The translations under genes were made by a program, and so were the position numbers. A model generated the notes under the pieces. That model was not told where the DNA came from and did not search any database. It was given only the letters and a program-made list of their open reading frames with translations. Positions 864 to 32,758 of a stretch of DNA of 32,997 bases are shown one piece after another (the stretch's first letter is position 1; every line of letters begins with the position of its first letter). Origin of the DNA: Methanosarcinales archaeon (lineage in GTDB: Archaea > Halobacteriota > Methanosarcinia > Methanosarcinales > Methanogasteraceae); the NCBI GenBank assembly GCA_004211975.1, contig RXIK01000134.1:1-32997 (forward strand), written 5' to 3'.

Positions 864-2477
864 TCATGGTATAATCTCGGATCGTACCATTGTGAAGACG
901 GGTCCTCTGATATCGATTTTTTTGTTGCTTGACGTGATCCATCGGTTTGCATGGGGTTTTATCTCGATGTTGATCTCTGAAGGTAATTTGACGCCTTTCA
1001 CCCGGTGTTCACATTCTTTGCCGCATCGTGCTGCATCCTCGATCTCGCGTGCTGCTTCTGATGCGAATGTATCGATGAACCGGAAGCCTGCGGGAATTCC
1101 GTTTTTGAAGACGTGATCCCATTTTCCGGTGTGGGGCACTCCGAGGATGCTTCCGTCGTGAATCATGACTTCGTTCATTGCAGCTGGACCGCAGAGTTTT
1201 GTGTTTTCTTCCGGTTCGATGACGGTTACCCGGATATCGTGCTTAAAAAGCTTGCCTTCCCATGCTATATGCTCGCATGGGCTAAGATCGCTCCCGTGCT
1301 CCTCGCATACGCTCACAATTGCACGTTCGATCATGAGTCCTGCGTGAGTTGCTGGTGACCGCCTGACACCGACAGTGCTTGCGAGTTTTGGGTCGGTCAT
1401 TGTGAGTGTGTCAAACTGCGGGTATGATAGTGATCTGACGTCGCTTGCGTCGTGAAGGATCATTGCGAGCCGCTCCACGCCAAGACCAAGGTTCATCACG
1501 GGATAGGGTATCTCGTATGCGGCAAGAGCGATTGGCGAGTACATGCCAAAGGTTGCGATCTCGATCCAGCCGTCCGCATACTTTGTGTCGGAGTCATGTA
1601 AGGCAGGATGGTACGCGTAGACCTCGATCTGGGTGTCGGGGACGTAGTACTTGCTCCGCTTCTCGTCCGGCTGGAATCGGAACTCCTCGAATCCAAACTG
1701 GGATAGTAGAGCCTGGGAGATTGCTTTTCCATAATCAACCGTGATATCTTCACCCATCATGACGCATGATGCTGAATGATATGTCATCAGCCTTGATGCG
1801 TCTTCTGACTGCTCTCTTCTGAAGCAGCGGTCTATTGAGAAGAGGTTCGCCGGGGGTTCGCGTAATTCCTTGAGTGCTGAGAGCGTGATGAACCAGCCGG
1901 ATGTCATGTGGCTGCGAAGCGTTTTTTTTGTTGGTTCCGGGATTAATTCACGAAACTCCGGAAACACCTCGTCAATCACCACGGCAACCTTTGAATCCGC
2001 CGCATCAAGCCGTTCTGCGAGCACTGGAATTAAGTCGTCACCCTCTATCACTCCTTTCTTGTATGAGTGAAGCACCTCTTTCACAGCCACGACATCATCA
2101 TCACTGAGGTTTCGTCCGAGGATGCCTGAAACTTTTGCGATCCGCTCGTCGGAAAGCCCGACATCAGGGCGCGGCAAGCCTGCCAGATAGAAACACCGGT
2201 CCAGAACAGCAAGAGCTTCGGATCCAAACTGGCGGTAGACCTCCCGATCCTCAACTATAAGCGGGTTCATAGTCTCTGTGAACCCCATTCTGAGATACGC
2301 CTCCCGCAGAAGGTGTGCGGTCTCAAATATCGGGTGCGTCTTCCCATAACCAAGTTTAAGGCGCGGGTAGCTATCGTTGATCGCAGGAGCCGGGATTAGT
2401 TCCTTACCCATGTTCCAGGTCTTCTCAAAGTCCTGCGCCGCTGACTTTCTGATTGCATCAGGATCGAACTTCATCAT
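864..2477 (-). CDS. sepS: O-phosphoseryl-tRNA(Cys) synthetase
   Basis: A class II aminoacyl-tRNA synthetase that charges tRNA-Cys with O-phosphoserine; SepCysS then converts this to Cys-tRNA in the tRNA-dependent cysteine route of methanogens and relatives. The protein (~537 aa, the usual family length) shows FGSEALAVLDRCFYLAGLPRPD near the N-terminus, LRSHMTSGWF, motif 2 as FSIDRCFRREQ followed by TYHSASC, and motif 3 as NLGLGVERLAMI. All are characteristic of SepRS rather than PheRS-alpha. The track's longer start is rejected: a TATA-like ATTTAAAC lies 26 bases before the ATG at 2477 (next ATG at 2474), fitting a leaderless mRNA. No sepcysS (pscS) lies beside it in this window. A hairpin follows the stop codon. 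Confidence 0.95.
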   Translation of the reverse strand: MMKFDPDAIRKSAAQDFEKTWNMGKELIPAPAINDSYPRLKLGYGKTHPIFETAHLLREAYLRMGFTETMNPLIVEDREVYRQFGSEALAVLDRCFYLAGLPRPDVGLSDERIAKVSGILGRNLSDDDVVAVKEVLHSYKKGVIEGDDLIPVLAERLDAADSKVAVVIDEVFPEFRELIPEPTKKTLRSHMTSGWFITLSALKELREPPANLFSIDRCFRREQSEDASRLMTYHSASCVMMGEDITVDYGKAISQALLSQFGFEEFRFQPDEKRSKYYVPDTQIEVYAYHPALHDSDTKYADGWIEIATFGMYSPIALAAYEIPYPVMNLGLGVERLAMILHDASDVRSLSYPQFDTLTMTDPKLASTVGVRRSPATHAGLMIERAIVSVCEEHGSDLSPCEHIAWEGKLFKHDIRVTVIEPEENTKLCGPAAMNEVMIHDGSILGVPHTGKWDHVFKNGIPAGFRFIDTFASEAAREIEDAARCGKECEHRVKGVKLPSEINIEIKPHANRWITSSNKKIDIRGPVFTMVRSEIIP

Positions 2478-2498
2478 GCTGTAATCGCTGTCGATCAC

Positions 2499-2506
2499 AT
2501 TTAAAC
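2499..2506 (-). promoter_or_regulatory. TATA-like box of sepS
   Basis: On the minus strand this reads GTTTAAAT, centred about 26 bases upstream of the ATG at 2477. That is the expected spacing from an archaeal TATA box to a transcription start at or beside the start codon. Confidence 0.5.
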
Positions 2507-2609
2507 ATGAGCACAACCATCACAGCATCCCTGAAAGCTCGCTCGCCATGCAGTTCACATATCTTTCGCAAAAACCACTATTGGTTTTGCACCTTCCACA
2601 TGCCAGGTA

Positions 2610-3260
2610 TCAATCCACCCCGACCACTTTCTGCAGGATCATGAGCACGTCGAGCGATGTAACATTCCCATCACCATTGATATCTGCGGTCTCGTTGTAT
2701 CCGCCGCTGACTGCCGTCCGGAGTGTGGCGACTACATCGATTAGGGTGGCTGTTTCACTGCCTATAACAGTTACCTCGCCATCGCCGATCACGACATACG
2801 GACCAACTATTTCAGGACCACCCGTTTCTCCGCTGATAGTAGCTAAGACGATCCCCCTCATAGAATAGTTGCCAGATGCGGTATCGACGGGTATTGTGAC
2901 ATTGTAGCTAACAGTCTTTGTACCGGTCTGTACGCCGCTCCAGAGCCACGTTGTTTTATCAACATTGCACATTGCTCCATCATCGTCGATCACGGTCACA
3001 TTCCAGCCCGCAGGAATACTCTCATTCAGTACTGGGCCGTAGACCTCGTCGGTTATAGTTACATCAACGGTTACTCTTAATGTGTCGCCTGCATTCACGC
3101 ACGCAGGACTAATTGTCCGGTCACCTGTGATGGTGCCTGCTGCGGCTGATGGTGTCGATGCGGCAAAAACTAACAACACCACGACAACCGTCAATAATCC
3201 CAACATTTGTTTCTTTTTCAGGTTCCTGCTTGATAATCCAATATCGTTATTCTCTAGCAT
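2610..3260 (-). CDS. Secreted protein with dockerin-like EF-hand at C-terminus
   Basis: About 216 aa from the start MLENNDIGL. A charged stretch (RNLKKK) is followed by a hydrophobic segment (LLTVVVVLLVFAAS) and an AAA-type cleavage region, so export is predicted. The middle (~50-145) resembles an immunoglobulin-like or DUF11-type extracellular beta-sandwich with N-glycosylation sequons (NES, NVT, NYS). The C-terminus carries DINGDGNVTSLDVL, a calcium-binding dockerin type I half-repeat; only one good loop is present where a full dockerin has two. The chosen start overlaps the stop of the upstream secreted gene by 7 bases and is preceded by GGGGGACGT, suggesting translational coupling. The partner is unknown; a cell-surface role is inferred. 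Confidence 0.72.
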   Translation of the reverse strand: MLENNDIGLSSRNLKKKQMLGLLTVVVVLLVFAASTPSAAAGTITGDRTISPACVNAGDTLRVTVDVTITDEVYGPVLNESIPAGWNVTVIDDDGAMCNVDKTTWLWSGVQTGTKTVSYNVTIPVDTASGNYSMRGIVLATISGETGGPEIVGPYVVIGDGEVTVIGSETATLIDVVATLRTAVSGGYNETADINGDGNVTSLDVLMILQKVVGVD

Positions 3261-4129
3261 ACGTCCCCCGTTGCCCATTGATACTCAAGCATGCTGATCT
3301 CGCTATCGGTGATGATGTGTCCGTTTACTGGAGTATTGGTTGCCCAATGATACTCCGCAAGGGATATCTCAAAGTCTTCGATGACACAGTCATCGTCCCA
3401 TTGGTTCCAGTTTAGGTCTCTGAGGTGTATTGTAAAATCAGAGGTTGGTTGTGGACCTGGGGCACACCTATCCATACACTCCGGACAGGCGGAGGCTTCT
3501 CCTGAATAGAATGTGATGTCGATACGATATTCCACTCCCTCATACGTGCAGCCCTGTCCAGGATATAATTGATGATCGTCCACTTTTACCTGACCGGTTC
3601 CGTCAGTGATGGTTACATTGGTGTAACTCGCTTCGCAGTTGCACAAGCCACACTGTGAACAATTTGGTGTACTGTTATATGTTATCACATAATCACTTAA
3701 TAACGGAGGCTCCAGGGAGTCGGATGACCAGTAAGGCTCCAAAAAATTGGGGTCGCCGTATATGTCGGTTATGATCGTCTCGGTGCACGAGTTCATCTTT
3801 CCTAAACTAATAACCGCCCCCATAGGTGCTGAACCAAGTATCTCTACATAATCACCCACACATATCTCATTTGCTGCATCATCATTCGGGAATAGCCATT
3901 TTATTGTGGTGCTGCTACATTGCCATTCACCACCGGATCCACCATCAGACCAGTTATGCGTTGTCTGAACTTCAAACGTAGCATTCTCAGCATCTTTTTC
4001 GATCACCGTTCCCAGATATCCCTCTGGGTTGAACGCTGCCAACGCGCCTCCTGTAAGAGTGCCAAGTAGCGCAACTGCTGTGCAAAGTCCAAACGCAATA
4101 TATTTTGTAGTTCTATTTATTTTAATCAC
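3254..4129 (-). CDS. Secreted Cys-rich protein with C-terminal 'EIS..EY.WAT' tandem repeat
   Basis: Unrecognised exported protein. I prefer the GTG at 4129 (MIKINRTTKY followed by AFGLCTAVALLGTLTGGALA, a clean signal peptide) over the track's upstream TTG, giving about 291 aa. The mature part has many cysteines arranged in pairs (CSQCGLCNC, CPECMDRC), sequons, and a possible OB-like region around GTVIEKDAENATFEV. The C-terminus contains two near-copies of a ~20-residue unit, DFEISLAEYHWATNTPVNG and DSEISMLEYQWATGDV. This resembles the short 'D.E....I..WA.G' tails I associate with surface proteins of methanogens and ANME archaea. It is upstream of, and overlaps, the dockerin-like gene, so the two probably work together at the cell surface. 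Function unknown. Confidence 0.68.
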   Translation of the reverse strand: MIKINRTTKYIAFGLCTAVALLGTLTGGALAAFNPEGYLGTVIEKDAENATFEVQTTHNWSDGGSGGEWQCSSTTIKWLFPNDDAANEICVGDYVEILGSAPMGAVISLGKMNSCTETIITDIYGDPNFLEPYWSSDSLEPPLLSDYVITYNSTPNCSQCGLCNCEASYTNVTITDGTGQVKVDDHQLYPGQGCTYEGVEYRIDITFYSGEASACPECMDRCAPGPQPTSDFTIHLRDLNWNQWDDDCVIEDFEISLAEYHWATNTPVNGHIITDSEISMLEYQWATGDVC

Positions 4130-4410
4130 CTCTGCCAGAAATACGATTCGCTCCAACCGGAGTCTTCGCGCTATGTACGGTCAACATACCACCCATACAA
4201 TAAAAAACTTCCTGCATAGCATAACAATAGCCATCCTGCCACGTTAACACGCCACAATAAAACCAACTGTTGCACGAGGCTTTGCTTGTGACTTCATCCC
4301 CGCTACAAGTAACGGGGTCTTCTGCCGCGGAGACTATAAAGCCACATAAGCACATCTACACCCCGCCGCCCGGCGGCGCTACGTGGTATAGCTGGCAACA
4401 CCGCCGCAAA

Positions 4411-5837: not shown

Positions 5838-7268
5838 TCACGTCACAATCATCCATAGCGCACCAGCCACGAGACCTCCGGCGAGTGTTGATACTACATT
5901 CACGCCGTTGTTGGAGAGTATGCCTCGCTGCTGCAGGGTTGCGCCGAGCAGGCTGTCGATGTTGGTGCCTGCAAACCCGCTGACGACAACGATTGTCATG
6001 CCGATCATGCATAGTCGGATCGGGTCAATTGCAATCACGCCGAAGAGAACCGCGAAGATGCCGATTACCAGTGAGCCTAATATGGATGCGGTTTCTCCGA
6101 GCATGGACACGCCTCCGTCGGTGCCTGGCTCGACTTTTTTTAGTGTGGTGATCATGCGGGGGCTGCCTTTGTATGTTGTGCCGACCTCGCTTGCAAGCGT
6201 ATCGCCGGTTGCGGTTGCTACTGAGCCAAGATAGATATACAGGAACAGGTATGACTCGTGTGGGAATATGGTGTAGCAGATGCTTGCGGCGATTGCGAAG
6301 ATGCTGTTGCTAAAAACGTTTCGGTAGCCTCTTGCGCCGCCTTTTCCCTGTGCAATCCCGAGTGACTTCTTATATTCATATTTGTACTTTGTGAACCCGC
6401 CTCCGAGCAGGTAGAAGGTCAGGAGAAGCAGAAACCACCAGACGTTGGTGAATGCGATGATCAGGACGCCGACCAGTGTTGCGCTGAGCAGCCCTGAGAT
6501 GTCTGCAATCTTTGCAACGTAAGCCAGGTACCCGAGCAGCAGCGCAAAGGCAAGCGCAAACAATAGATACATGGGTGAGACCGAGTATCCGATGACAAGG
6601 AGCAGCCACATGGTCATGGCAGAGCCGATCGGGACTGTGATATTGTCATGGATCCGTGTTGAGATGCATTCGAAAAGCGCGCCGGAGGTTCCTCCGATTA
6701 CCGAGATAAAGAATAACAACTGGAATGATACGGTGTATCCGGTCCAGTACACGATCCATGCCCCGATCAGAAATGAAAAGATCGCCCCGACAGAGAGAAT
6801 TGTTAGGCTGGCTTTGACGGACTCTGGTTTGGTTTGTTCTCCCTGGTACTGTCGTCTTGGGTACTCGATGTTGTTGAGTATGTTGTATCTTGCCTGCTCG
6901 GTCACGCGGAGGCTGGTTGCCATGCCGTCGCCAAAGGTGGTGATTGCGATCGCTCCTCCTATCAGGAAGATCGGGAACTCGTAATCAGTGAATGTGAGTA
7001 CCCATGCTACTAAAACCAGGATTAACATGCTTCCGCTGAGGCAGATTGCGCCTGTGGGTCTTCTTTTGGTAGCTTTATCTGATGACGTGATGATTCTAAA
7101 TAGTTTGCTTGACACTGGCAGCATCAGAACAGAGGAGAACAGCACGAGCAACAGTAGCACGAGGTATTGCAAGGGGACAAACGGGAATATTAGTACGATC
7201 ATCCCGATTAGGACATGAATCGTCTGCCTTTTGTATTCATGTTTGATGTTCAGGTGCATCGCAGTCAT
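5838..7268 (-). CDS. Fused dolichol/phytol-kinase-like and DUF92 membrane protein
   Basis: 476-aa integral membrane protein with two parts. Residues ~1-215 have the marks of the dolichol/phytol kinase (VTE5, CTP_transf-like) family: EYKRQTIHVLIG, RPTGAI, FGDGMATSL, TKPESVKASL and FECISTRIHDNITVP. Residues ~235-476 are DUF92: GGGFTKYKYEYKKSLG, GKGGARGYRNV, ATGDTLASEVG, KKVEPGTDGGVSMLGE and FAGTNIDSLLG. In plants and cyanobacteria VTE5 makes phytyl phosphate and the DUF92 protein VTE6 makes the diphosphate. The archaeal fusion could therefore phosphorylate a prenol such as geranylgeraniol twice for lipid salvage; that role is inferred. It is the last gene of the ksgA operon, 33 bases after ksgA. 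Either ATG at 7268 or 7259 could start it. Confidence 0.85.
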   Translation of the reverse strand: MTAMHLNIKHEYKRQTIHVLIGMIVLIFPFVPLQYLVLLLLVLFSSVLMLPVSSKLFRIITSSDKATKRRPTGAICLSGSMLILVLVAWVLTFTDYEFPIFLIGGAIAITTFGDGMATSLRVTEQARYNILNNIEYPRRQYQGEQTKPESVKASLTILSVGAIFSFLIGAWIVYWTGYTVSFQLLFFISVIGGTSGALFECISTRIHDNITVPIGSAMTMWLLLVIGYSVSPMYLLFALAFALLLGYLAYVAKIADISGLLSATLVGVLIIAFTNVWWFLLLLTFYLLGGGFTKYKYEYKKSLGIAQGKGGARGYRNVFSNSIFAIAASICYTIFPHESYLFLYIYLGSVATATGDTLASEVGTTYKGSPRMITTLKKVEPGTDGGVSMLGETASILGSLVIGIFAVLFGVIAIDPIRLCMIGMTIVVVSGFAGTNIDSLLGATLQQRGILSNNGVNVVSTLAGGLVAGALWMIVT

Positions 7269-7301: not shown

Positions 7302-8081
7302 TTAATCCCTTTGGTGATGGTACAAAACGTCTGATATTTCAGCTAGTCGGGCGGCGGGAAGTTCTTCAGGTCGCATGTTCAGTAGGTCCTCGGGCAGCTC
7401 CACATCCTTGATACTTGTAAACGCTGCAATAGAGTTCTTCAGTTTCTTTCTGCGCTGCGAGAAGACTGCTGTTAGGAATCTTGAGAAGAAGTTGCGGTCA
7501 GCCACCTCGTATTCCGGCGCACGGGGGGTCAGGCGCACGATTGCTGACCTCACGCCTGGTTGTGGGGAGAACGCTGTGGGTGGCACGATTTCAAGCAGTT
7601 CTACGTCAGCAAGATACTGAACACAGATCGAAAGCTTTCCGTAATCCTTTGACCCGTGTGATGCCGCCAGTCGTCTTGCGAATTCGTACTGATACATCAG
7701 AATTGCCTCTTCAAACGGATGTTCCAGTAATTTAAAGGTGATCTTCGAAGAAATCGAATAGGGCAGGTTTGAAACGACTTTATTGAACCATGTGAACTGT
7801 GAGAACTCTATTTTCAGTGCGTTGCCGTGCACCACTTCCACCACGCATGCGCCGGTGCCTGTGTCTTTGAACCGCGTGGTGAGCGATCTTGCCATGGTTG
7901 TGTCAGATTCGATCGCGATTACCATGCCTGCGTGTTCTGCGAGTTTTTCTGTGAGGATGCCGGTTCCTGCGCCGATCTCCAGAACCACGTCGCTCTCATG
8001 AAGGCAGGCATACGTGAGGATATGGTGAAGCACCAGATCATCGATCAGCATGTATTGGTCGGATCGTGTCATTGTTGCCAT
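7302..8081 (-). CDS. ksgA: 16S rRNA dimethyladenosine transferase
   Basis: Methylates two adjacent adenines at the 3' end of 16S rRNA (KsgA/Dim1 family), a late step in small-subunit assembly. The SAM-binding motif I is VVLEIGAGTGILTEKLA, motif IV is NLPYSISSKI, and the C-terminal domain includes FSPQPGVRSAIVRL and FSQRRKKLKNS, all diagnostic. I place the start at the ATG at 8081 (MATMTRSDQYMLID), giving 259 aa. The track's extra 41 N-terminal residues run back into the upstream gene and are rejected. It begins 19 bases after the RimK-like gene and is followed closely by the DUF92 fusion, so all are probably co-transcribed. No clear Shine-Dalgarno sequence was seen. Confidence 0.94.
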   Translation of the reverse strand: MATMTRSDQYMLIDDLVLHHILTYACLHESDVVLEIGAGTGILTEKLAEHAGMVIAIESDTTMARSLTTRFKDTGTGACVVEVVHGNALKIEFSQFTWFNKVVSNLPYSISSKITFKLLEHPFEEAILMYQYEFARRLAASHGSKDYGKLSICVQYLADVELLEIVPPTAFSPQPGVRSAIVRLTPRAPEYEVADRNFFSRFLTAVFSQRRKKLKNSIAAFTSIKDVELPEDLLNMRPEELPAARLAEISDVLYHHQRD

Positions 8082-8100
8082 CACTATATTATCTATGTGT

Positions 8101-8967
8101 TTAACGCCTTGCCATCGTACTGCACAGTTCCACGATGTTTTTGGTGACATCAACTCCGCACGCATCGAATATTCCTTTCCCGGAGGGTGTGCCGTTAACC
8201 TCAAGAATCACGAAGCCATCCTTGGTCTCGGCGAGGTCCACGCCTGCAAAGGTGGCGCCAACAGCTTCAGCTGCCAAAACGCTTGCTTCTTTCTGTGACT
8301 GGTTAAGCACGCATGGTAGAGGTCGCCCGTTCTGGCTTAGATTAGTGATCCACCCTGTTTCGGCATACCGGTAGATCGAGCCTGCAACCGTTTTTCCGAC
8401 GACAAACACCCGCATATCCCGGTTCATCGGTATAAATTCCTGAATATATAACACGCCTCGTTCAGCGAGTATTTTATCGATAGAATCTCGATTCTGGATG
8501 GATCGTTCGGGGTCGCTGCGAAAACGCGTGATTCCAATACCTTTGTACCCAAAGATCGGTTTGATCACGATCTCACCCCAATCATCAAGTATCTTGATCG
8601 CAACATCCGGATCACAGGTCACGGCTGTTTTTGGGACTGGAAGACCTGATTTTTGGAGAAGATGTAGTGAATAATACTTGTTCGCAGCGTTCCGGATGGC
8701 TTCAGGCGTGTTGATGACCGGTATGTCACTGGCAAGTATCTTTAGCAGATCAAACTTGAAAGAGACCTGCTCAAATGCGCCTGCGCCAACATCTCGCACG
8801 ATGACCGCGTCTATGTCGCAGGTCCCGGGGATATTTGGTGAACCAACACATGCCGTGATTTCATCTAACCTGAGCAGAATCGGGGTTGCACCGATCTTTT
8901 TTATTGATCGAACAAGAGCCAGGGCAGTCCAATCACCTTGATCGGTGACTATGATTCCTATTTTCAT
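8101..8967 (-). CDS. RimK-family ATP-grasp ligase (MptN/CofF-like)
   Basis: 288 aa, full length for archaeal RimK-like ligases, which join an amino acid (usually glutamate) to a carboxylate. Candidates are MptN (tetrahydromethanopterin to tetrahydrosarcinapterin), CofF (coenzyme F420 tail capping), or a LysX-like enzyme. Visible marks are an N-terminal alpha/beta domain (MKIGIIVTDQGDW, DAVIVRDVGAG, INTPEAIRNAANKYYS), the ATP-grasp core (IVIKPIFGYKGIGITR, YIQEFIP, DMRVFVVG) and the metal-binding end EVNGTPSGKG. The lack of a LysW-type partner and the methanogen context favour MptN, but substrate cannot be read from sequence. It lies 20 bases after the winged-helix gene; its start sits in a triple 8-bp tandem repeat containing three ATGs, of which only the last opens this frame. 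Confidence 0.82.
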   Translation of the reverse strand: MKIGIIVTDQGDWTALALVRSIKKIGATPILLRLDEITACVGSPNIPGTCDIDAVIVRDVGAGAFEQVSFKFDLLKILASDIPVINTPEAIRNAANKYYSLHLLQKSGLPVPKTAVTCDPDVAIKILDDWGEIVIKPIFGYKGIGITRFRSDPERSIQNRDSIDKILAERGVLYIQEFIPMNRDMRVFVVGKTVAGSIYRYAETGWITNLSQNGRPLPCVLNQSQKEASVLAAEAVGATFAGVDLAETKDGFVILEVNGTPSGKGIFDACGVDVTKNIVELCSTMARR

Positions 8968-8987: not shown

Positions 8988-9347
8988 TCAGGGCATCCGC
9001 TCGACGATGCCGTCGATCTGCATCGATTTCCTGTAGAATTTGGTGGACGTTTCGATGAACCGTGCGGCTGCAAGCCCCTTGTCTGTGATTACATATCCAC
9101 CGCGGTGCACCTTCTCCACCAGTCCTGACAGCAGGAAGATAACTTTAATTTTGCTCCCAACACTGCCGCGATCTGCGATCTGGTCTGTGTACGCCCGAAT
9201 ATCCGCAAACATTGTGACGTGTCCCTCGTTTTCCGCGAGAACGCGGATGATCAGGCGGTACTGAAGGTCACCTGGACCGTTGTTGATGCCAAGCGATTGA
9301 AAGTACAGGGCAACCTCACCTTCAAGGGAAATATCAATTTCACTCAT
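8988..9347 (-). CDS. Small winged-helix-like protein
   Basis: 119 aa from MSEIDISLEG. The middle and end look like a winged helix: YRLIIRVLAENEGHVTMFADI, then VIFLLSGLVEKVHRGGYVITDKGLAAARFI, where the wing and the 'T.KG' turn are typical of archaeal wHTH domains. The track's longer start is rejected because MSEID begins inside the stop of the upstream 7TM gene (ATGAGTGA overlap, 8 bases), a common coupled arrangement. It could be a DNA-binding regulator or a protein-binding wHTH adaptor. It is co-linear with the RimK-like ligase and ksgA. Specific family not recognised. Confidence 0.68.
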   Translation of the reverse strand: MSEIDISLEGEVALYFQSLGINNGPGDLQYRLIIRVLAENEGHVTMFADIRAYTDQIADRGSVGSKIKVIFLLSGLVEKVHRGGYVITDKGLAAARFIETSTKFYRKSMQIDGIVERMP

Positions 9348-10104
9348 CGATTCCATCCCCGTCAGGCTCTGCATCCTGAACTTTCCGGATGCTAAGGCGG
9401 TCCTGCAGTATGTCGGGCGGATAGTATGCGAGGAATGCAAGCACCACCCCGATCAGGATGAAGAGGCGTGCTACTACCTGCATCATATCCTGAACTGCCA
9501 CCATATCCACAAGAATAAAGTCAAAGACAAGGGATATTGCAACCAGCACCAGCGCAATATGGTACCTGCGGCGTCTCGAGATCTTTCGGATCAGGGTGAT
9601 TCCAAGAAGTGCGAAGATCATCGCGGTCGGCACGATGAAAAGCCCTGCCATATATACGGTGATCGCGATATCGCTGTCGATTGAGAAGATGGTTGCCCAG
9701 TAGGTGACCTCGGGACCAACGACCCCGGACATGTAAAGAAACGTTAGATATGCGATGCCGAATATGGAAAAAAGCAGAGACATCGCCCAACTAGATGTTT
9801 TATCCCCTGTAGTGACATAAACAATGAAAAACACAATTGGTACCGGGAGAAATGCGAAAGGAACTGCCGCAATATAATAACACACCCTATCAACTTCAAC
9901 ATACCCGTAAAACGCTGCAATCACCCGCACACAGACAAACATGAAAGAAATCGAGATCAGCGCCCAGAAATCAATCAGCGCTATCATCGAAGGTGTGCTC
10001 TGATCTTTACATTTCGGTTTGTTTCGGTATAGCGTCAATGCAAACGCAAACGCAGACAGCATTATCGCGGCGCAGATCGTTGCATTCAATATCAGTCCAC
10101 TCAT
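9340..10104 (-). CDS. Seven-TM membrane protein of unknown function
   Basis: 254 aa with about seven hydrophobic segments (residues roughly 5-25, 42-65, 78-98, 107-127, 148-170, 180-198, 205-226) and a charged C-terminal tail of ~30 residues (DILQDRLSIRKVQDAEPDG). The layout resembles the 7TM sensor modules fused to histidine kinases in methanogens, but no kinase or other signalling domain follows here. Instead the tail leads straight into an overlapping small winged-helix gene. Together they could be a membrane sensor and a cytoplasmic effector; this is inference from topology and overlap only. It is preceded by a 62-base gap after the FBPase gene and may belong to the same transcript. Confidence 0.66.
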   Translation of the reverse strand: MSGLILNATICAAIMLSAFAFALTLYRNKPKCKDQSTPSMIALIDFWALISISFMFVCVRVIAAFYGYVEVDRVCYYIAAVPFAFLPVPIVFFIVYVTTGDKTSSWAMSLLFSIFGIAYLTFLYMSGVVGPEVTYWATIFSIDSDIAITVYMAGLFIVPTAMIFALLGITLIRKISRRRRYHIALVLVAISLVFDFILVDMVAVQDMMQVVARLFILIGVVLAFLAYYPPDILQDRLSIRKVQDAEPDGDGIDE

Positions 10105-15117: not shown

Positions 15118-15203
15118 CATGTGAATATCCCGGATACTATCATCAGCGCAAGCACGACAACACCCGGCCAGAACCTCCCGCGGTTGCTCCAGCAAACCCA
15201 CCA

Positions 15204-15227
15204 CAGTCCGCAACACGAAAGCGAGCG
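15204..15227. repeat. Short repeat left of the restriction module
   Basis: CAGTCCGCAACACGAAAGCG plus AGCG. It is similar in 21 of 24 positions to 19924-19947, and both lie just outside the restriction enzyme / membrane protein pair in the same orientation. Confidence 0.45.
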
Positions 15228-15375
15228 ACTGCACCCACACCCACCAACAGGATCAATTCCCACCAAACAACCCCATTTCTACGAGGACCTAAGGCGTCAT
15301 TATCGAGATGGCGCCACATTCTTCTTTGCTTGCCGGACACAGATTCCCGGGAAAACATGCAAACGATTCTACAGT

Positions 15376-15383
15376 AAATATAA
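15376..15383 (+). promoter_or_regulatory. TATA-like box of the restriction-modification gene
   Basis: AAATATAA lies 26-33 bases before the ATG at 15409. This fits a leaderless transcript and argues against the track's start at 15121. Confidence 0.45.
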
Positions 15384-15408
15384 TGAAGCACGGAGCACCA
15401 TTCATGAT

Positions 15409-18405
15409 ATGATGCCGAAAAACGAAACGAAAGACGAGGCAAAACAGAAGATCGGGGAACTTGTCGAGCGGTTCAGATATAATCTTAACGTCTACAAAAA
15501 ATCGGCATACAATGAAACACAGGTGAGGCGAGAGTTTATTGACCCGTTCTTTGAAGCTCTGGGCTGGGATGTTAGCAATAAGCAGGGTCATGCAGAACAG
15601 TACAAGGATGTTGTTCACGAGGACGCAATAAAAGTGGGGCGTTCGACCAGAGCGCCAGATTACAGTTTCAGAATCGGAGGTCTGCGGAAGTTCTTTGTCG
15701 AAGCGAAGAAGCCCGCAGTAAACATAAAAGATGACGTTGCCCCATCATACCAACTGCGGCGATACGCATGGAGCGCAAAACTGCCATTATCCATCGTGAC
15801 CGATTTTGAGGAAATATCAGTCTACGACTGCCGGATCAAACCAGGGCAGAAAGACAAAGCCAGCGTGGGACGGATCGGATACTACACGTTTGAAGAATAT
15901 CCCGATAAGCTTGATGAGATATACGATGTCTTTTCCAAGGACGCAGTTCTCAAAGGAAGCTTCGACCAGTACGCACAGTCAACAAAAGGCAAAAGAGGCA
16001 CTGCAGAAGTTGATAACGAATTCTTAAAAGAGATTGAGAGCTGGCGTGAAATACTGGCTAAAAACATCGCTCTCAGGAACCCCGAGGTGTCAATCCACGA
16101 GTTAAACTATGCGGTGCAGAAAATAATAGACCGGGTCATCTTCCTCAGGATCTGCGAAGACCGGGGAATCGAGCCCTACGGGCAGCTGCACCCAACAGCC
16201 AACTCCACCAACATCTACACACACCTGCTGAACCACTTCAAACTCGCAGAACTAAAATACAACAGCGGCATATTTAACTTTGGGGCAGACGCGGTAACGC
16301 CACAATTGGAGATTGACGACAAGGTCTTGAAAACAATTATCCAGAGTCTGTACTATCCGAAATCGCCGTACGAATTCTCGGTTCTCGGCGTCGAGATCCT
16401 GGGAAACGTGTACGAACAGTTCCTGGGCAAGGTCATCAGGCTGACCGCGGGACACCAGGCAAAAGTGGAGACAAAGCCAGAGGTCAAAAAGGCAGGCGGA
16501 GTGTACTACACACCCCAATACATCGTTGATTACATTGTGGGAAACACGGTTGGTAAACTGGTTGCGGGAAAAACGCCAGAAGAGATTGCGGAAATCAAGA
16601 TACCCGACCCTGCATGTGGTTCAGGAAGTTTTCTTATCGGTGCGTACACGCATCTCCTGAGGTATCATCTGGACTGGTACGTGGAAAACAAGCCGAAGAA
16701 GCACAAAAAGGCGGTTTTTCAGGTCAAAGAGAACGAATGGTACCTGACAACAGATGAGAAGAAGAGGATTCTTTTAAACAACATCTACGGCGTTGATATC
16801 GACTCGCAGGCAGTCGAGGTTACAAAACTGAGTTTGCAATTGAAAGTGCTTGAGAACGAAAGCAGGGAGAGCGTAGACCAGCAGGTGAAACTGGGGACGG
16901 AGGGCATACTTCCGAACCTCGGGGGCAATATCAAATGCGGAAACTCACTCATCGGACCGGATTTTTACGATGCAGGGCAGACAACTCTTTTCGATGAGGA
17001 TGAAATGCGGCGAGTCAATGTGTTCGATTGGGATGATGCAGGACGGGGGTTTGGGGAGATTATGGGCAGGGGTGGGTTTGATTGCGTGATCGGGAATCCA
17101 CCATATGTACGGCAGGAACTGCTGAAAGAACAGAAAGGATATTTTAAAGATCATTATCAGGTGTATCAGGGAACTGCTGACCTGTGCGCCTACTTTATTG
17201 AGAAAGGGGTCTCGCTGCTCCAGTCTGGCGGATATTTCTCGTATATTGTTGCGAACAAGTGGATGCGTGCGAATTATGGCAAACCGCTCCGGCAGTGGCT
17301 AAAGACAAAGCGAATCGAGGAGATCGTTGATTTTGGCGATCTCCAGGTGTTCCAGAATGCTACAACTTACCCCTGTATTATGCGGATTTCCAACGGGAAA
17401 CCCAGTTCGACATTTGGAGTGACGCAGGTCGAAACGCTGGAGTTCTCAGACCTCGGGACTTATGTGGAAAAGCATCAGTATACGGTGAATCAAGATGGAC
17501 TGGATGATGGTGGGTGGGCGCTCGTCGATAAAGAGACCCGGGCATTACTGGATAAACTACGTAAAACAGGCGTCCCGTTGGGTGAATATGTCGATGGAAA
17601 AATATACTATGGCATTAAAACAGGTCTGAATGAGGCTTTTGTCATCGATTCCTCAACTCGTGATAAGCTGATCACGGAAGACCCCAAAAATGCAGAACTG
17701 ATCAAGCCATTTCTTGCCGGTAAGGACATCAAACGATATCAGCCACCGTGCAGCAAACGGTACTTGATACTGATACCAAAAGGCTGGACAAACCAAAAAT
17801 CAGGAGGGGTGAAAGATGCCTGGAACTGGCTGCAAAATAACTATCCCGGAGTGGCTTCTCATCTGAAACCCTTCTCTGAAAAAGCTCAGAAACGCTATGA
17901 CAAAGGTGAATATTGGTGGGAACTGCGTGCTTGTGATTATTACATTGAATTTGAAAAGCCTAAGATTGCATATCTAATATTTCAAGTAAAGCCCACATTT
18001 ACCTTTGATGATGGGGGTAATTATTGCAATAATGCAACTTATATAATTCCAAATAAAGATTTGCTATTGTTGGGAATACTTAACTCGAAGCTTGGTTGGT
18101 TCTTAATTTCTAGCTATTGTACTCAAATACAGAATGGTTATCAACTCATCTTCAAATATTTTGGGAAAATCCCCATATGCACGATAGACTCCTACAATCC
18201 TGCTGAAAAAGCCCAGCACGATAAACTTGTTTCCTTGGTAGATAACATGCTCGATCTGCAAAAGAAATACGATAAGACGAGAATGGAGCGAGATAAAGAA
18301 CTTTATGAACGGCAGATAAAGATTGTTGATGCACAGATTGACCGGCTGGTTTACGATTTGTATGGGCTGACAAAGGGGGAGATTGGAATTGTGGAAGAAG
18401 AGTGA
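15409..18405 (+). CDS. Type IIG-like restriction endonuclease-methyltransferase
   Basis: 998 aa from MMPKNETKDE, containing a whole restriction-modification system in one chain. Residues ~30-110 hold a PD-(D/E)xK nuclease (RREFIDPFFEALGWD, PDYSF...VEAKKP). A helical linker follows, then an N6-adenine methyltransferase with GGVYYTPQYIVDYIV, motif I DPACGSGSFLIGAY (~400) and motif IV GNPPY (~563). The C-terminal third is a TaqI/Eco57I-like target-recognition region (IYYGIKTGLNEAF, LIKPFLAGKDIKRY, IAYLIFQ) ending in a coiled-coil-like helix. It should cut and methylate one strand-specific site, recognition unknown. The track's first 96 residues are rejected: they lie in decayed DNA, show no homology-like features, and a TATA box sits at 15376. 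The 3' end overlaps the next gene. Confidence 0.92.
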   Translation: MMPKNETKDEAKQKIGELVERFRYNLNVYKKSAYNETQVRREFIDPFFEALGWDVSNKQGHAEQYKDVVHEDAIKVGRSTRAPDYSFRIGGLRKFFVEAKKPAVNIKDDVAPSYQLRRYAWSAKLPLSIVTDFEEISVYDCRIKPGQKDKASVGRIGYYTFEEYPDKLDEIYDVFSKDAVLKGSFDQYAQSTKGKRGTAEVDNEFLKEIESWREILAKNIALRNPEVSIHELNYAVQKIIDRVIFLRICEDRGIEPYGQLHPTANSTNIYTHLLNHFKLAELKYNSGIFNFGADAVTPQLEIDDKVLKTIIQSLYYPKSPYEFSVLGVEILGNVYEQFLGKVIRLTAGHQAKVETKPEVKKAGGVYYTPQYIVDYIVGNTVGKLVAGKTPEEIAEIKIPDPACGSGSFLIGAYTHLLRYHLDWYVENKPKKHKKAVFQVKENEWYLTTDEKKRILLNNIYGVDIDSQAVEVTKLSLQLKVLENESRESVDQQVKLGTEGILPNLGGNIKCGNSLIGPDFYDAGQTTLFDEDEMRRVNVFDWDDAGRGFGEIMGRGGFDCVIGNPPYVRQELLKEQKGYFKDHYQVYQGTADLCAYFIEKGVSLLQSGGYFSYIVANKWMRANYGKPLRQWLKTKRIEEIVDFGDLQVFQNATTYPCIMRISNGKPSSTFGVTQVETLEFSDLGTYVEKHQYTVNQDGLDDGGWALVDKETRALLDKLRKTGVPLGEYVDGKIYYGIKTGLNEAFVIDSSTRDKLITEDPKNAELIKPFLAGKDIKRYQPPCSKRYLILIPKGWTNQKSGGVKDAWNWLQNNYPGVASHLKPFSEKAQKRYDKGEYWWELRACDYYIEFEKPKIAYLIFQVKPTFTFDDGGNYCNNATYIIPNKDLLLLGILNSKLGWFLISSYCTQIQNGYQLIFKYFGKIPICTIDSYNPAEKAQHDKLVSLVDNMLDLQKKYDKTRMERDKELYERQIKIVDAQIDRLVYDLYGLTKGEIGIVEEE

Positions 18406-21919: not shown

Positions 21920-22834
21920 ATGACCACAACTTACTCCGCCCCCGGAAAAATTTATCTCTTCGGTGAACACGCCGTTGTCTATGGTAAGCGGGCGGTTGCA
22001 TCCGCAATTAACCTCCGCACAGTCGCAACCGTCCGAGAATCGAACCAGACGAGGATCACCTCTTCTCTTGGAACAACTGGTATTGATTACATGGTGCACC
22101 CTTATATTTCGCGGTGCATTGAATCGCTCAGTGTTCCCGAGGTTTCAGTTATGATTGATTCTGATATTCCGGTTGGTTCCGGACTTGGGTCATCGGCTGC
22201 TGCGGTGATCGCGACGCTTGGTGCGCTTAACTCTGAGTTTGGTCTTGGAATGACCCGCGCAGAGATTGCGGAGGTGGGGCATGCGATTGAGCGGGAGGTT
22301 CAGGGTGCTGCGTCGCCGACTGACACGTTTGTCTCGACGATGGGTGGCACTATAATGATAACGCCCGGGGGGTTGTCGCCAGTGTCAGCGAAGTTGAGGT
22401 TGATTGACTGTGATATTGTGATTGGGGACACGCGGGAGTTTTCTTCCACAAAGGAACTTGTGGGGAATGTCGGGGTTCTGCATGAGCGTTATCCAACTGT
22501 CATGAACCCGGTTTTTGACATAATTGACAGTTTTGCAGAGGTTGGCGTGCCCTTAATTGAGAATGGGGATTACCGCGGGGTTGGAGAACTGATGAACATT
22601 AATCACGGGCTTCTGGACTCGATAGGTGTTGGGAGCGCGAAACTCTCCGCGCTGGTCTACGCCGCAAGAGATGCTGGCGCGTGGGGTGCGAAGATCACGG
22701 GTGCGGGTGGTGGTGGCTGCATTGTTGCGCTTGCCGATGAGGCGGCGGCGGATTCTGTCGTGCAAGCGATCGCTGATTCTGGAGGGCACGCGATCGCAAC
22801 GAGCGCGAGCGAGGAAGGGGTTGCGGCACGGTGA
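21920..22834 (+). CDS. mvk: Mevalonate kinase
   Basis: 304 aa, typical for archaeal mevalonate kinase, a GHMP kinase that phosphorylates mevalonate on the way to isoprenoid lipids. Motifs: the N-terminal SAPGKIYLFGEHAVVYGKRA, the ATP loop IPVGSGLGSSAAAV, the catalytic Asp region GAASPTDTFVSTMGGT, and the C-terminal GAKITGAGGGGCIVAL. Start at ATG 21920 gives MTTTYSAPGK, which aligns with the family. AAATATCAGG about 25 bases upstream is a possible TATA box. Together with uppS and the prenol kinase/DUF92 fusion, it is one of three isoprenoid genes in the window, though they are not adjacent. Confidence 0.95.
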   Translation: MTTTYSAPGKIYLFGEHAVVYGKRAVASAINLRTVATVRESNQTRITSSLGTTGIDYMVHPYISRCIESLSVPEVSVMIDSDIPVGSGLGSSAAAVIATLGALNSEFGLGMTRAEIAEVGHAIEREVQGAASPTDTFVSTMGGTIMITPGGLSPVSAKLRLIDCDIVIGDTREFSSTKELVGNVGVLHERYPTVMNPVFDIIDSFAEVGVPLIENGDYRGVGELMNINHGLLDSIGVGSAKLSALVYAARDAGAWGAKITGAGGGGCIVALADEAAADSVVQAIADSGGHAIATSASEEGVAAR

Positions 22835-29921: not shown

Positions 29922-31100
29922 TCATCGTGTTGACACGATCTTCACAACATCTCGGTCTTCAAGCTCTCTTCCCATCCGCATCTTTCGTCTGGCATCAACC
30001 GCATGTAGAAAGCCCTCTCCGATGTCGGTGTGCACCTGATATGCAAGATCGTGTGCGGTGCTGCCCCGTCGCATCAGGAAGGCATCAGGAAGGATGTTTC
30101 CTTTTTTGTCCGCGAATTTTGATTCGTCTTCAACGGGATATGCCACGATCTGGTCCAGGAGATCAAAAACTGCCGCATTGATGCACCGCTGTATGCCGGT
30201 TCCGCCCATTGTCCCGATCATGTCCTGGATCTTATCGAGAGCCTGTGTTTGCGCACCTGTGAGGTCTTTTGAGATGATTTCAAAGCTTGAATCGCCGGGT
30301 AGGTAGGAGATCGCGCCGCTCCGGTCTGCCATGCGCAGCGCAAGTTCTGCTTCGGCGGATGTTGGGATTACGGTGTAGCCAAGTTCGCATAACCTACGGA
30401 TATTCTCTTCAGGTGCGATGTCAGCCTTGTTTGCTGCGATGATCATGGGTTTGCTCTCTCTGCGGAGCAGGTCTGCAAAGTCCCGTACATCGGAATCCTC
30501 CCATTTGTGCAGGGGTGTTGTGCAGGTCTCGTTGAAATGGAAAAGGGCTGTTTTTGCCTGCAGGATACTTATGCCAGCGCCAGCGAGTTGTTCGGCGATC
30601 ACAACCTCTGCTTTCAGGTTTTCTGCGTGTATCTTTTTTGATAGCCGGTTCCAGTTCCGGCTGAGTATTGAGGATAGCCACAAGGCAAACTCGCGTTCAA
30701 GAAACTCGATGTCCCCAACCGGATCATGCTCGCCGGGATTCACGGGGTTGCCCTCAATATCGGTTCCGCCTGAGGCATCGACTACGTGGATGATTGCCTG
30801 CGCCTGACGCAGGTTGTCAAGGAACGCATTGCCAAGACCCCGTCCCAGGTATGCGTCAGGCACGAGACCCGCGACATCAATTAGATCAATTGGCACAAAC
30901 CGGATGCCGTTTCGGCAGTTTGTGCATCTGGCATCAAGGTCGGTGCACGGGCATTCAGTGCGCACATAACCAATTCCGTGATTGGCATCAATGGTGGTGA
31001 ATGGATAATTTGCAATTTCAATGTCCGCAAGAGTTGCGGATTTGAAGAACGTTGATTTCCCGGAGTTTGGTTTTCCTGCAAGTGCTATCGACATCGGCAT
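29922..31100 (-). CDS. OBG/YchF-type GTPase with TGS domain
   Basis: About 392 aa from MPMSIALAGKPNSGKSTFF (ATG 31100; a second ATG two codons on is possible). G1 is GKPNSGKS, the switch region is ANYPFTTIDANHG, G3 is DVAGLVPDAYLGRGLGNAFLDNLRQ and G4 is ANKAD. The C-terminus has the TGS-like DAFLMRRGSTAHDLAYQVHTDIGEGF. This is the archaeal YchF-related family of ribosome-associated translation GTPases. The track's 18-residue N-terminal extension is rejected because the G1 motif normally starts within ten residues. It is convergent with the toxin-antitoxin pair. Confidence 0.92.
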   Translation of the reverse strand: MPMSIALAGKPNSGKSTFFKSATLADIEIANYPFTTIDANHGIGYVRTECPCTDLDARCTNCRNGIRFVPIDLIDVAGLVPDAYLGRGLGNAFLDNLRQAQAIIHVVDASGGTDIEGNPVNPGEHDPVGDIEFLEREFALWLSSILSRNWNRLSKKIHAENLKAEVVIAEQLAGAGISILQAKTALFHFNETCTTPLHKWEDSDVRDFADLLRRESKPMIIAANKADIAPEENIRRLCELGYTVIPTSAEAELALRMADRSGAISYLPGDSSFEIISKDLTGAQTQALDKIQDMIGTMGGTGIQRCINAAVFDLLDQIVAYPVEDESKFADKKGNILPDAFLMRRGSTAHDLAYQVHTDIGEGFLHAVDARRKMRMGRELEDRDVVKIVSTR

Positions 31101-31190
31101 GACGATGACTTGTTGTCGGGCTCCGGATAAATAACTTGCGATGCTATACTTCACACCGACACAAACCAGAGATTTTTCAAATCAGTCGAT

Positions 31191-31271
31191 ACGTAATTCG
31201 TGGGATTTGTCCATTCGTATATTTCATGGTAAAATCACGAATTTAGACGAATATCGCGAATTACACGAATC
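31191..31271. repeat. Palindromic repeat family C
   Basis: ACGTAATTCGTGGGATTTGT and CCATTCGT pair with ACGAATTTAGACGAATATCG and CGAATTACACGAAT across a short loop. It is the only copy in the window. Confidence 0.65.
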
Positions 31272-31521
31272 TACACCCACATAATCCATTTATTATACTT
31301 GAAAATTTGGATTATTCCGTATGAGTGAAATTTAGGTCCTTGTTTTTGTAGGCATCGTCTTTGGTCTGCCGATAAACAGCGCAGTTTATGCAGCGTGCGC
31401 AAGTATAGCTAAACACGTATCCGCTTCAAATTAAGTGGTGACCGAGGTACTATCCAAAAAATCGGTGAATTAGGATAATTATTGTAGATGCGGGTTTCAT
31501 AAATTTACGCTGGTATTACGT

Positions 31522-31599
31522 CAAATCAGTGAAATCCGTGTTAATCTGTGGCTTACAATGGCTTTTAGCCACAGATTAACAGTGATAAACACAGATTTC
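31522..31599. repeat. Palindromic repeat family A, copy 4
   Basis: AAATCAGTGAAATCCGTGTT and AATCTGTGGC, a short loop, then TTTTAGCCACAGATTAACAG and TGATAAACACAGATTT. Confidence 0.82.
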
Positions 31600-31659
31600 G
31601 GTTTTTACGCATATCTTTTGGAAAGACTGAAGATTGGGTTCCACCATACTTTTTAAGGT

Positions 31660-31830
31660 GGATACCTAAACCATGTGCATTCAGGGTAACATTGACGCAA
31701 GCAATCGCGGATGATGGCATGATCCGGTGGCTCTGTCCAACCGAGAACGAACCAGTTCCATGCGACCTGATTCCGGAACTTTTGACAGTTGCGCTCTTTG
31801 TTGTTGTTGTTGGGTTGTTGTTGGGTTGTT
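31660..31830 (-). pseudogene. Possible transposase N-terminal fragment
   Basis: A minus-strand frame reads QKFRNQVAWNWFVLGWTEPPDHAIIRDCLRQ, which recalls the 'R..A..WL.G...PDH.TI..F' region near the start of IS5/IS1182-type transposases. No start, catalytic residues or terminal repeats remain. A weak call. Confidence 0.3.
31798..31830. repeat. GTT-rich simple repeat
   Basis: TTGTTGTTGTTGGGTTGTTG and TTGGGTTGTTG, a simple-sequence run just past the uppS stop region. Confidence 0.6.
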
Positions 31831-31879
31831 GAGGATTGACTGATGTAGGTGGATCGGGCAATTAGGTCAGCTATTGTGA

Positions 31880-32758
31880 TTAGCCCGGGTGGCGATGCAG
31901 GATAGCCCCTCTGAGATGACCGGCAACATCCCCCATCTTGGCAGATCCACATGCTGCAAGCATATTAGCAGTTCTGATCAGTGCGGATTGTTTTTGTTCG
32001 TGCTCTCGCGTCTGATAGACCCGTATTGCCCGGAGAAAGTCGATTTTCCGAAACTCAGGCCAGAACGGCGCGCAGAAATAGGCTGCACACTCGCTTCCGT
32101 TCGCCTGCCACGGAAGAAAGTTCGAGGTGCGAATGTCGCCGCCGGTTCGTATGATCAGGTCAACATCAGAGTCAGCGACGCCGTTTGTGTACATGTGACA
32201 TGACACAACCGACTCATTGATGTCATCAGCCCGCAGCTCACCTGCTTGAACCTTGCGTGCCATGTCCTGCACTGCATCAAGGATCTCACGCTGCCCGCCG
32301 TAAGCGACTGCAATGTTGAGGTGGAGTCCATCATAGTTACAGGTAACCTTTTCCACACGCCTTATCGCGTCCTGAAGGTGAGTGGGCAGTAGATGCACCT
32401 CGCCGATCGCCGAAACCTTCATTCGTCTTTCGTGAGTGCGAGGATCATCTGCAAGTTCGCATAGTTTTTTGGCGATGATCTCAAATATCTTCGCACGCTC
32501 AGGTTCCGGGCGCGAGAAGTTCTCGGTTGAGAACGCATAGATCGTGGTCTGCTGTATCCCGAGTTCCCAGCACCACTCAAGAAACTGCTCTGTGGTCCTG
32601 GCACCATAGATATGCCCGTAATACCGCACGATCCGCACGCGATCCGCATACCTGCGATTCCCATCCATGATCACGGCAACGTGACGCGGCACACCGTGTT
32701 TCTTGACCTCATCGGTTAGTAAACGTTCATAGCCATAGTACAGCGTCTTACGAAGCAC
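31880..32758 (-). CDS. uppS: cis-prenyltransferase (undecaprenyl/dolichyl diphosphate synthase type)
   Basis: 292 aa; adds isoprene units in cis to a farnesyl- or geranylgeranyl-diphosphate starter to make the lipid carrier for surface glycosylation. Motifs: HVAVIMDGNRRYADR (catalytic Asp), YAFSTENFSRP, GGQREILDAV, and the C-terminal DLIIRTGGDIRTSNFLPWQ, CAAYFCAPFWPEFRKIDFLRAI. Archaeal members have this NFLPWQ form. The best start is GTG at 32758 (V/MLRKTLYYGYERLL); no in-frame ATG precedes the family core, so GTG is inferred from conservation. It lies 22 bases after the end of the partial gene at the window's right edge and may share its operon. Confidence 0.92.
   Translation of the reverse strand: MLRKTLYYGYERLLTDEVKKHGVPRHVAVIMDGNRRYADRVRIVRYYGHIYGARTTEQFLEWCWELGIQQTTIYAFSTENFSRPEPERAKIFEIIAKKLCELADDPRTHERRMKVSAIGEVHLLPTHLQDAIRRVEKVTCNYDGLHLNIAVAYGGQREILDAVQDMARKVQAGELRADDINESVVSCHMYTNGVADSDVDLIIRTGGDIRTSNFLPWQANGSECAAYFCAPFWPEFRKIDFLRAIRVYQTREHEQKQSALIRTANMLAACGSAKMGDVAGHLRGAILHRHPG

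Follow-up and report, generated by a model that had tools for sequence, protein, structure and literature searches.

The window analysed here (the whole stretch of 32,997 nucleotides) carries on its minus strand an open reading frame (ORF) that joins two membrane domains in one polypeptide. The features most relevant to the interpretation of this ORF are as follows.

5838..7268, minus strand: the whole ORF, 476 aa with an ATG start, SEC59-like N-terminal half and DUF92 C-terminal half
6564..7268, minus strand: N-terminal SEC59/COG0170-like domain, residues 1-235, degenerate (hhalign, motif loss)
5838..6563, minus strand: C-terminal DUF92/TIGR00297 domain of the VTE6 family, residues 236-476, intact (PF01940, TIGR00297)
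7302..8204, minus strand: ksgA/rsmA rRNA dimethyltransferase gene, upstream of the ORF at a distance of 33 bp, a context specific to the window's family
21920..22834, plus strand: mevalonate kinase gene, on the same contig as the fused gene
31880..32758, minus strand: uppS cis-prenyltransferase gene, 24.6 kb from the fused gene (TIGR00055, E 3.5e-70)

The window also contains a gene for the O-phosphoserine-tRNA ligase SepS (864-2516, minus strand; 698 bits against a cut-off of 380.65), two successive genes for secreted-type proteins (2610-4156, minus strand), of which the first matches dockerin type I and the second has, by eye, a similar end repeat, and a 254-aa protein of membrane-like sequence for which no Pfam or NCBIfam match was found (9340-10104, minus strand). 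At 15121-18405 the plus strand encodes a 1094-aa DNA methylase of the Eco57I type that contains HSDR_N and TaqI_C domains and weakly resembles BREX PglX; it looks like a type IIG-type restriction-modification enzyme.

The first-pass annotation described the product of 5838-7268 as a fusion of two domains, and both the ORF and the fusion were borne out by a PF01940 match in the C-half (E 1.8e-66) and a profile-profile match of the N-half to SEC59 (hhalign E 7e-18). By sequence comparison, the ORF is a genuine and conserved SEC59/DUF92 fusion that is neither unusual nor new. Homologues were detected in 57 of 60 relatives, representing all 17 genera of the order, and nearly all are full length, with a few fragments; relatives with names, from a scan that gave 12 loci, include Ethanoperedens, Argoarchaeum and Methanoregula. 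Across the sampled phylum, which we take to be Halobacteriota, DUF92 is present in 294 of 296 genomes. Among the matches listed, the DUF92 ORFs are at least 398 aa long, with the exception of three ORFs of 251-298 aa in genomes G068, G140 and G145 (L100, L098 and L097, respectively), in which DUF92 occurs without the N-half. A relative from Thermoproteota is likewise a single-domain protein, of 273 aa. The DUF92 controls included Methanosarcina acetivorans, Haloferax volcanii, Methanocaldococcus jannaschii and Synechococcus elongatus; the last of these extends the family to cyanobacteria, in keeping with its link to VTE6.

The AlphaFold2 model of the full protein, built on a 59-sequence alignment (pLDDT 92.8, pTM 0.90), is an all-helical membrane protein with two bundles. 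A phmmer search of the PDB found no relative, and a Foldseek search with the full model gave no significant match to a solved structure, the best CTP-transferase match being CdsA (4q2g, probability 0.30). Because direct profile comparison of the N-half with the C-half is weak (E 9e-4 to 5e-3, probability 7-23%), a common origin of the halves by internal duplication would rest on a published HHpred result (PMC5898192).

The assignment of the C-half to DUF92, the family of VTE6, was confirmed by PF01940 (residues 241-464, 224.5 bits against the Pfam cut-off of 27.5), by TIGR00297 (residues 235-468, 211.5 bits against the curated NCBIfam cut-off of 205.85) and by the following family-invariant residues, identified by alignment.

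6306..6341, minus strand: residues 310-321, GGARGYRNVFSN, with family-invariant G311, R313, N317 and N321
6186..6209, minus strand: residues 354-361, TGDTLASE, with family-invariant D356, T357 and E361
5952..5969, minus strand: residues 434-439, GTNIDS, with family-invariant G434, D438 and S439

Altogether, 24 columns of the C-half, including R313, N317, N321, D356, T357, E361 and D438, are invariant among 59 sequences drawn from the whole phylum, and at the level of sequence all DUF92 family-invariant residues are kept in the C-half of the 5838-7268 protein. The plant enzymes VTE6, a phytyl-phosphate kinase belonging to COG1836, and VTE5, a phytol kinase, both prefer CTP (PMC9782597). By analogy with plant VTE6, it is reasonable to predict that the C-half is a VTE6-like kinase. 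COG1836 has also been found by HHpred to resemble the cytidylyltransferase family, with both metal-binding Asp residues conserved (PMC5898192).

No Pfam or NCBIfam model matches residues 1-235. Because the intact single-domain SEC59 protein from the same genome also escapes Pfam, the missing family match of the N-half says little. Profile-profile comparison with hhalign connected the N-half to single-domain SEC59 proteins over about 180 columns with a probability of 99%; the E value was 7e-18 when the N-half set comprised the window's family alone or the phylum and 2e-19 when it comprised the order, the SEC59 comparison profile consisting of 40 SEC59-type sequences of the same order, some of them duplicated. 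In the AlphaFold2 models, the N-half and a single-domain SEC59 protein show seven helices in identical order. The best solved match of the single-domain SEC59 model in a Foldseek search was the CTP-transferase CdsA (probability 0.97, E 0.15). Judged by profiles, the N-half is homologous across the whole domain to the dolichol kinase/VTE5 family (SEC59, COG0170).

Homology is accompanied by extensive motif loss. In the single-domain SEC59 proteins of the same order (n=26), the invariant residues are R12, G106, D107, G114, G118, E131, G132, D173, N174 and P178, a motif set that derives from same-order homologues rather than from biochemically tested enzymes. The counterparts of these motifs in the window protein are as follows.

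7215..7229, minus strand: residues 14-18, RQTIH, counterpart of SEC59 RKxxH with R and H kept and K replaced by Q (alignment)
6924..6932, minus strand: residues 113-115, GDG, corresponding to the metal-binding GD motif and present in 14 of 14 members of the window's family (alignment)
6819..6830, minus strand: residues 147-150, KPES, occupying the position of K[ST]xEG, a low-confidence loop in the model (alignment, AlphaFold2)
6642..6650, minus strand: residues 207-209, HDN, counterpart of SEC59 (H/D)DN (alignment)

The Q that takes the place of K in RKxxH also occurs in 2 of 40 single-domain SEC59 sequences. In the segment GDGMATSLRV of the window protein, the GD and the A of the SEC59 motif GDxxAxxxGxxxG are present and both later G residues are gone; the DN-then-P feature is present as HDNITVP (residues 207-213). 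The first-pass annotation had reported VTE5/dolichol kinase motifs in the N-half, and this holds for GDG, for R14 and H18, and for HDN followed by VP at residues 207-213, but not for GxxxG or K[ST]xEG. In the window's family, R14, H18, GDG, DN and P213 are found in all 14 members, and LRV and KPES replace GxxxG and K[ST]xEG, respectively. This family thus has the least eroded N-half and yet lacks the CTP-loop motifs.

Phylum-wide, the erosion is far more advanced. Neither GDxxAxxxGxxxG nor K[ST]xEG, both near-invariant in the single-domain SEC59 proteins of the same order, occurs in any of 67 fused N-halves; GD is retained in 22 of the 67, so that the Asp is lost in 45, and DN and the helix-1 His are each retained in 23. 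Loss of key catalytic residues in the alignment, which the first-pass annotation had named as grounds against its own proposal, is evident for the fused proteins overall and applies only by half to the window's lineage, in which R, H, GDG and DN are kept. The models differ in the same region. In intact SEC59, the GD helix stops 10 residues past the Asp and gives way to a loop, containing short strands, that connects to the EG motif; in the window protein this helix extends 19 residues beyond the Asp before a low-confidence loop. At a conservation level of at least 95%, there are 2 columns in the N-half as against 34 in the C-half. Pairwise dN/dS values of 0.07-0.31 for the N-half and 0.03-0.31 for the C-half, with the N-half value higher in 15 of 16 pairs, indicate that the N-half evolves under purifying selection that is looser than that on the C-half. 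The N-half is thus a degenerate domain that has lost most of its nucleotide-binding residues and, to judge from the motif loss, is probably inactive.

A fused gene of this type has been described before. Makarova, Galperin and Koonin (2015) reported Mbar_A3310 of Methanosarcina barkeri (arCOG02245), in which a SEC59-like N-domain (HHpred 99.85%) is joined to a C-domain of COG1836, noted the uppS gene context and proposed an isoprenoid step that needs a kinase (PMC5898192). Both catalytic Asp residues of the Mbar_A3310 N-domain were stated to be conserved (PMC5898192). In three loci (L079, L117 and L118, in genomes G279, G306 and G182, from two related genera), the Asp site of the N-half reads GD, GN and GS, respectively, so the conservation stated for Mbar_A3310 fails across these close relatives. 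The first-pass view that the predicted activity is not standardly annotated is true of databases, although the fusion and a prediction of the prenol-kinase type had been in print since 2015 (PMC5898192).

The genome of the window also encodes, on a different contig, an intact single-domain SEC59-type ORF of 225 aa with RKxxH, GDASAAIFGKAFG, VEG and DDN. PF01148 (CTP_transf_1) was discarded as a detector of such genes: its main matches were CarS-like ORFs, and it did not recover the window's N-half in its own genome. It was replaced by a profile built on single-domain SEC59 proteins, against which the 225-aa ORF scores E 3e-79, the profile itself including that protein. This profile was matched in 175 of 197 phylum genomes, almost always by short ORFs among the matches listed, although at the threshold used a few of the lower-scoring matches may stem from fused proteins. 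In three genomes that have no match to the SEC59 profile (G064, G090 and G187), the fused N-halves are likewise degenerate, which argues that the fused domain is no substitute for the absent SEC59 kinase there. On the simplest view, a separate protein carries out the first phosphorylation in trans wherever that step takes place.

Since the N-half lacks most nucleotide-binding residues, one working kinase with a degenerate partner is likelier than a two-step enzyme. We consider it fairly probable, on the strength of these sequence comparisons, that the protein combines a single CTP-dependent prenyl-phosphate kinase, the C-half, with a degenerate SEC59-derived domain, and that the first phosphorylation is performed by another protein. 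Under this model, the product of the fused gene would be a polytopic membrane enzyme whose only active site lies in the C-half; this half would transfer phosphate from CTP to a prenyl monophosphate to yield the prenyl diphosphate, as expected from VTE6. The SEC59-derived N-half would have lost the CTP-binding loop and, in most lineages, the catalytic residues; it would be maintained by relaxed purifying selection and probably acts as a partner domain with a structural, regulatory or lipid-binding role. The conversion of prenol to the monophosphate would fall to the cell's separate SEC59-type kinase, and the cis-prenyltransferase neighbours would assign the step to polyprenol/dolichol metabolism or to that of short prenyl diphosphates.

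The substrate of such a kinase could be of either of two kinds. The uppS gene adjoins the fused gene in 36 compared loci, which is the usual arrangement in other families of the phylum; in the window, ksgA takes this place. A YchF-related GTPase gene adjoins uppS in the window, the two together spanning 29922-32758 on the minus strand, and in Methanoregula and other loci the GTPase gene adjoins the fused gene. Together with the mevalonate kinase gene, this context supports an isoprenoid role and leaves the chain length unfixed. A variant of the preferred model, in which only the substrate differs, a long-chain cis-polyprenyl or dolichyl phosphate destined for glycan carriers taking the place of a C20 prenyl phosphate for membrane lipids, has a substantial chance of being correct, if one somewhat short of even. 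The recurrence of uppS as a neighbour, observed in the 36 loci and also reported in PMC5898192, speaks for the long chain, but the known VTE6-type enzymes work on C20 chains (PMC9782597), and uppS also uses short allylic diphosphate primers, so that the context does not settle chain length. Moreover, the immediate neighbour in the window is ksgA, with uppS far away on the same contig.

The proposal of the first-pass annotation, two working kinases acting consecutively in one polypeptide, was not supported. It would have the N-half phosphorylate a free C20 prenol and the C-half phosphorylate the resulting monophosphate to give geranylgeranyl diphosphate for archaeal lipids. Both domains do come from the right families, R14, H18, GDG and DN persist throughout the 14 members of the window's family, and the fusion itself hints at a functional link. 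Nevertheless, the CTP-loop signature (GxxxG and K[ST]xEG) is missing from all 67 fused proteins and the catalytic Asp from most of them, the N-half is the faster-evolving half in most pairs, and an intact, separate SEC59 gene is carried by this genome and by most others in the phylum; we regard such a bifunctional enzyme as improbable.

The retention of R14, H18, GDG, DN and P213 in 14 of 14 members makes a residual or altered activity of the N-half possible in the window's family. Accordingly, a more restricted scenario can be formulated, in which the N-half of this family alone has kept or re-evolved prenol binding or phosphoryl transfer with a rebuilt nucleotide loop, such that both steps would be performed by one polypeptide, and elsewhere in the phylum would be a pseudokinase serving the DUF92 kinase as scaffold or regulator; we give this scenario only a slim chance. 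Finally, it is very unlikely that the C-half, instead of being a kinase, works in the manner of a cytidylyltransferase with a prenyl or archaeal lipid phosphate as its substrate: although COG1836 is related to the CTP-transferase superfamily (PMC5898192) and CdsA is the best solved match of the single-domain SEC59 relative, a CarS-like ORF matching PF01148 is already present in the genome, and every tested DUF92 protein cited is a VTE6-type kinase (PMC9782597).

What is new here is a correction, namely the loss of N-half motifs across the fused family; the fusion and the prediction of an isoprenoid kinase were already published in 2015. The analysis points to two gene products, with the single-domain SEC59-type protein predicted to perform step one and the DUF92 protein step two, and labelling the fused protein a bifunctional prenol kinase from domain content alone would be unsafe. 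The maintenance of a degenerate kinase domain over nearly a whole archaeal phylum is in itself a modest puzzle.

The fused protein shares with arCOG02245/Mbar_A3310 the SEC59-like plus COG1836 architecture, the proposed kinase-requiring isoprenoid step and, in relatives, the uppS context. It differs in that the catalytic Asp residues of the N-domain are mostly lost in the wider sample, including two of three Methanosarcina-like sequences (the genus assignment being presumed), and in that the gene of the window's family now lies beside ksgA. Like plant VTE6 and COG1836, the C-half spans a complete DUF92 domain and retains the family-invariant residues, but the single-domain family model has a length of 237 and the fused protein adds a SEC59-derived domain. 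The N-half is homologous to SEC59/VTE5/FOLK (COG0170), with the same order of seven helices and, in the window's family, R, H, GDG and DN; unlike those kinases, it is devoid of GxxxG and K[ST]xEG, and most other families have also lost the Asp. Two archaeal prenol kinase activities reported in 1996, as they are cited in PMC9385802 and PMC9782597, match the two steps proposed in the first-pass annotation, but according to the account in PMC9385802 they belong to two enzymes and to a different archaeal lineage. In the yeast and human dolichol kinases, an additional N-terminal domain modulates the catalytic part (PMC11542857); although not homologous to the fused N-half, that domain provides a precedent for a non-catalytic partner domain.
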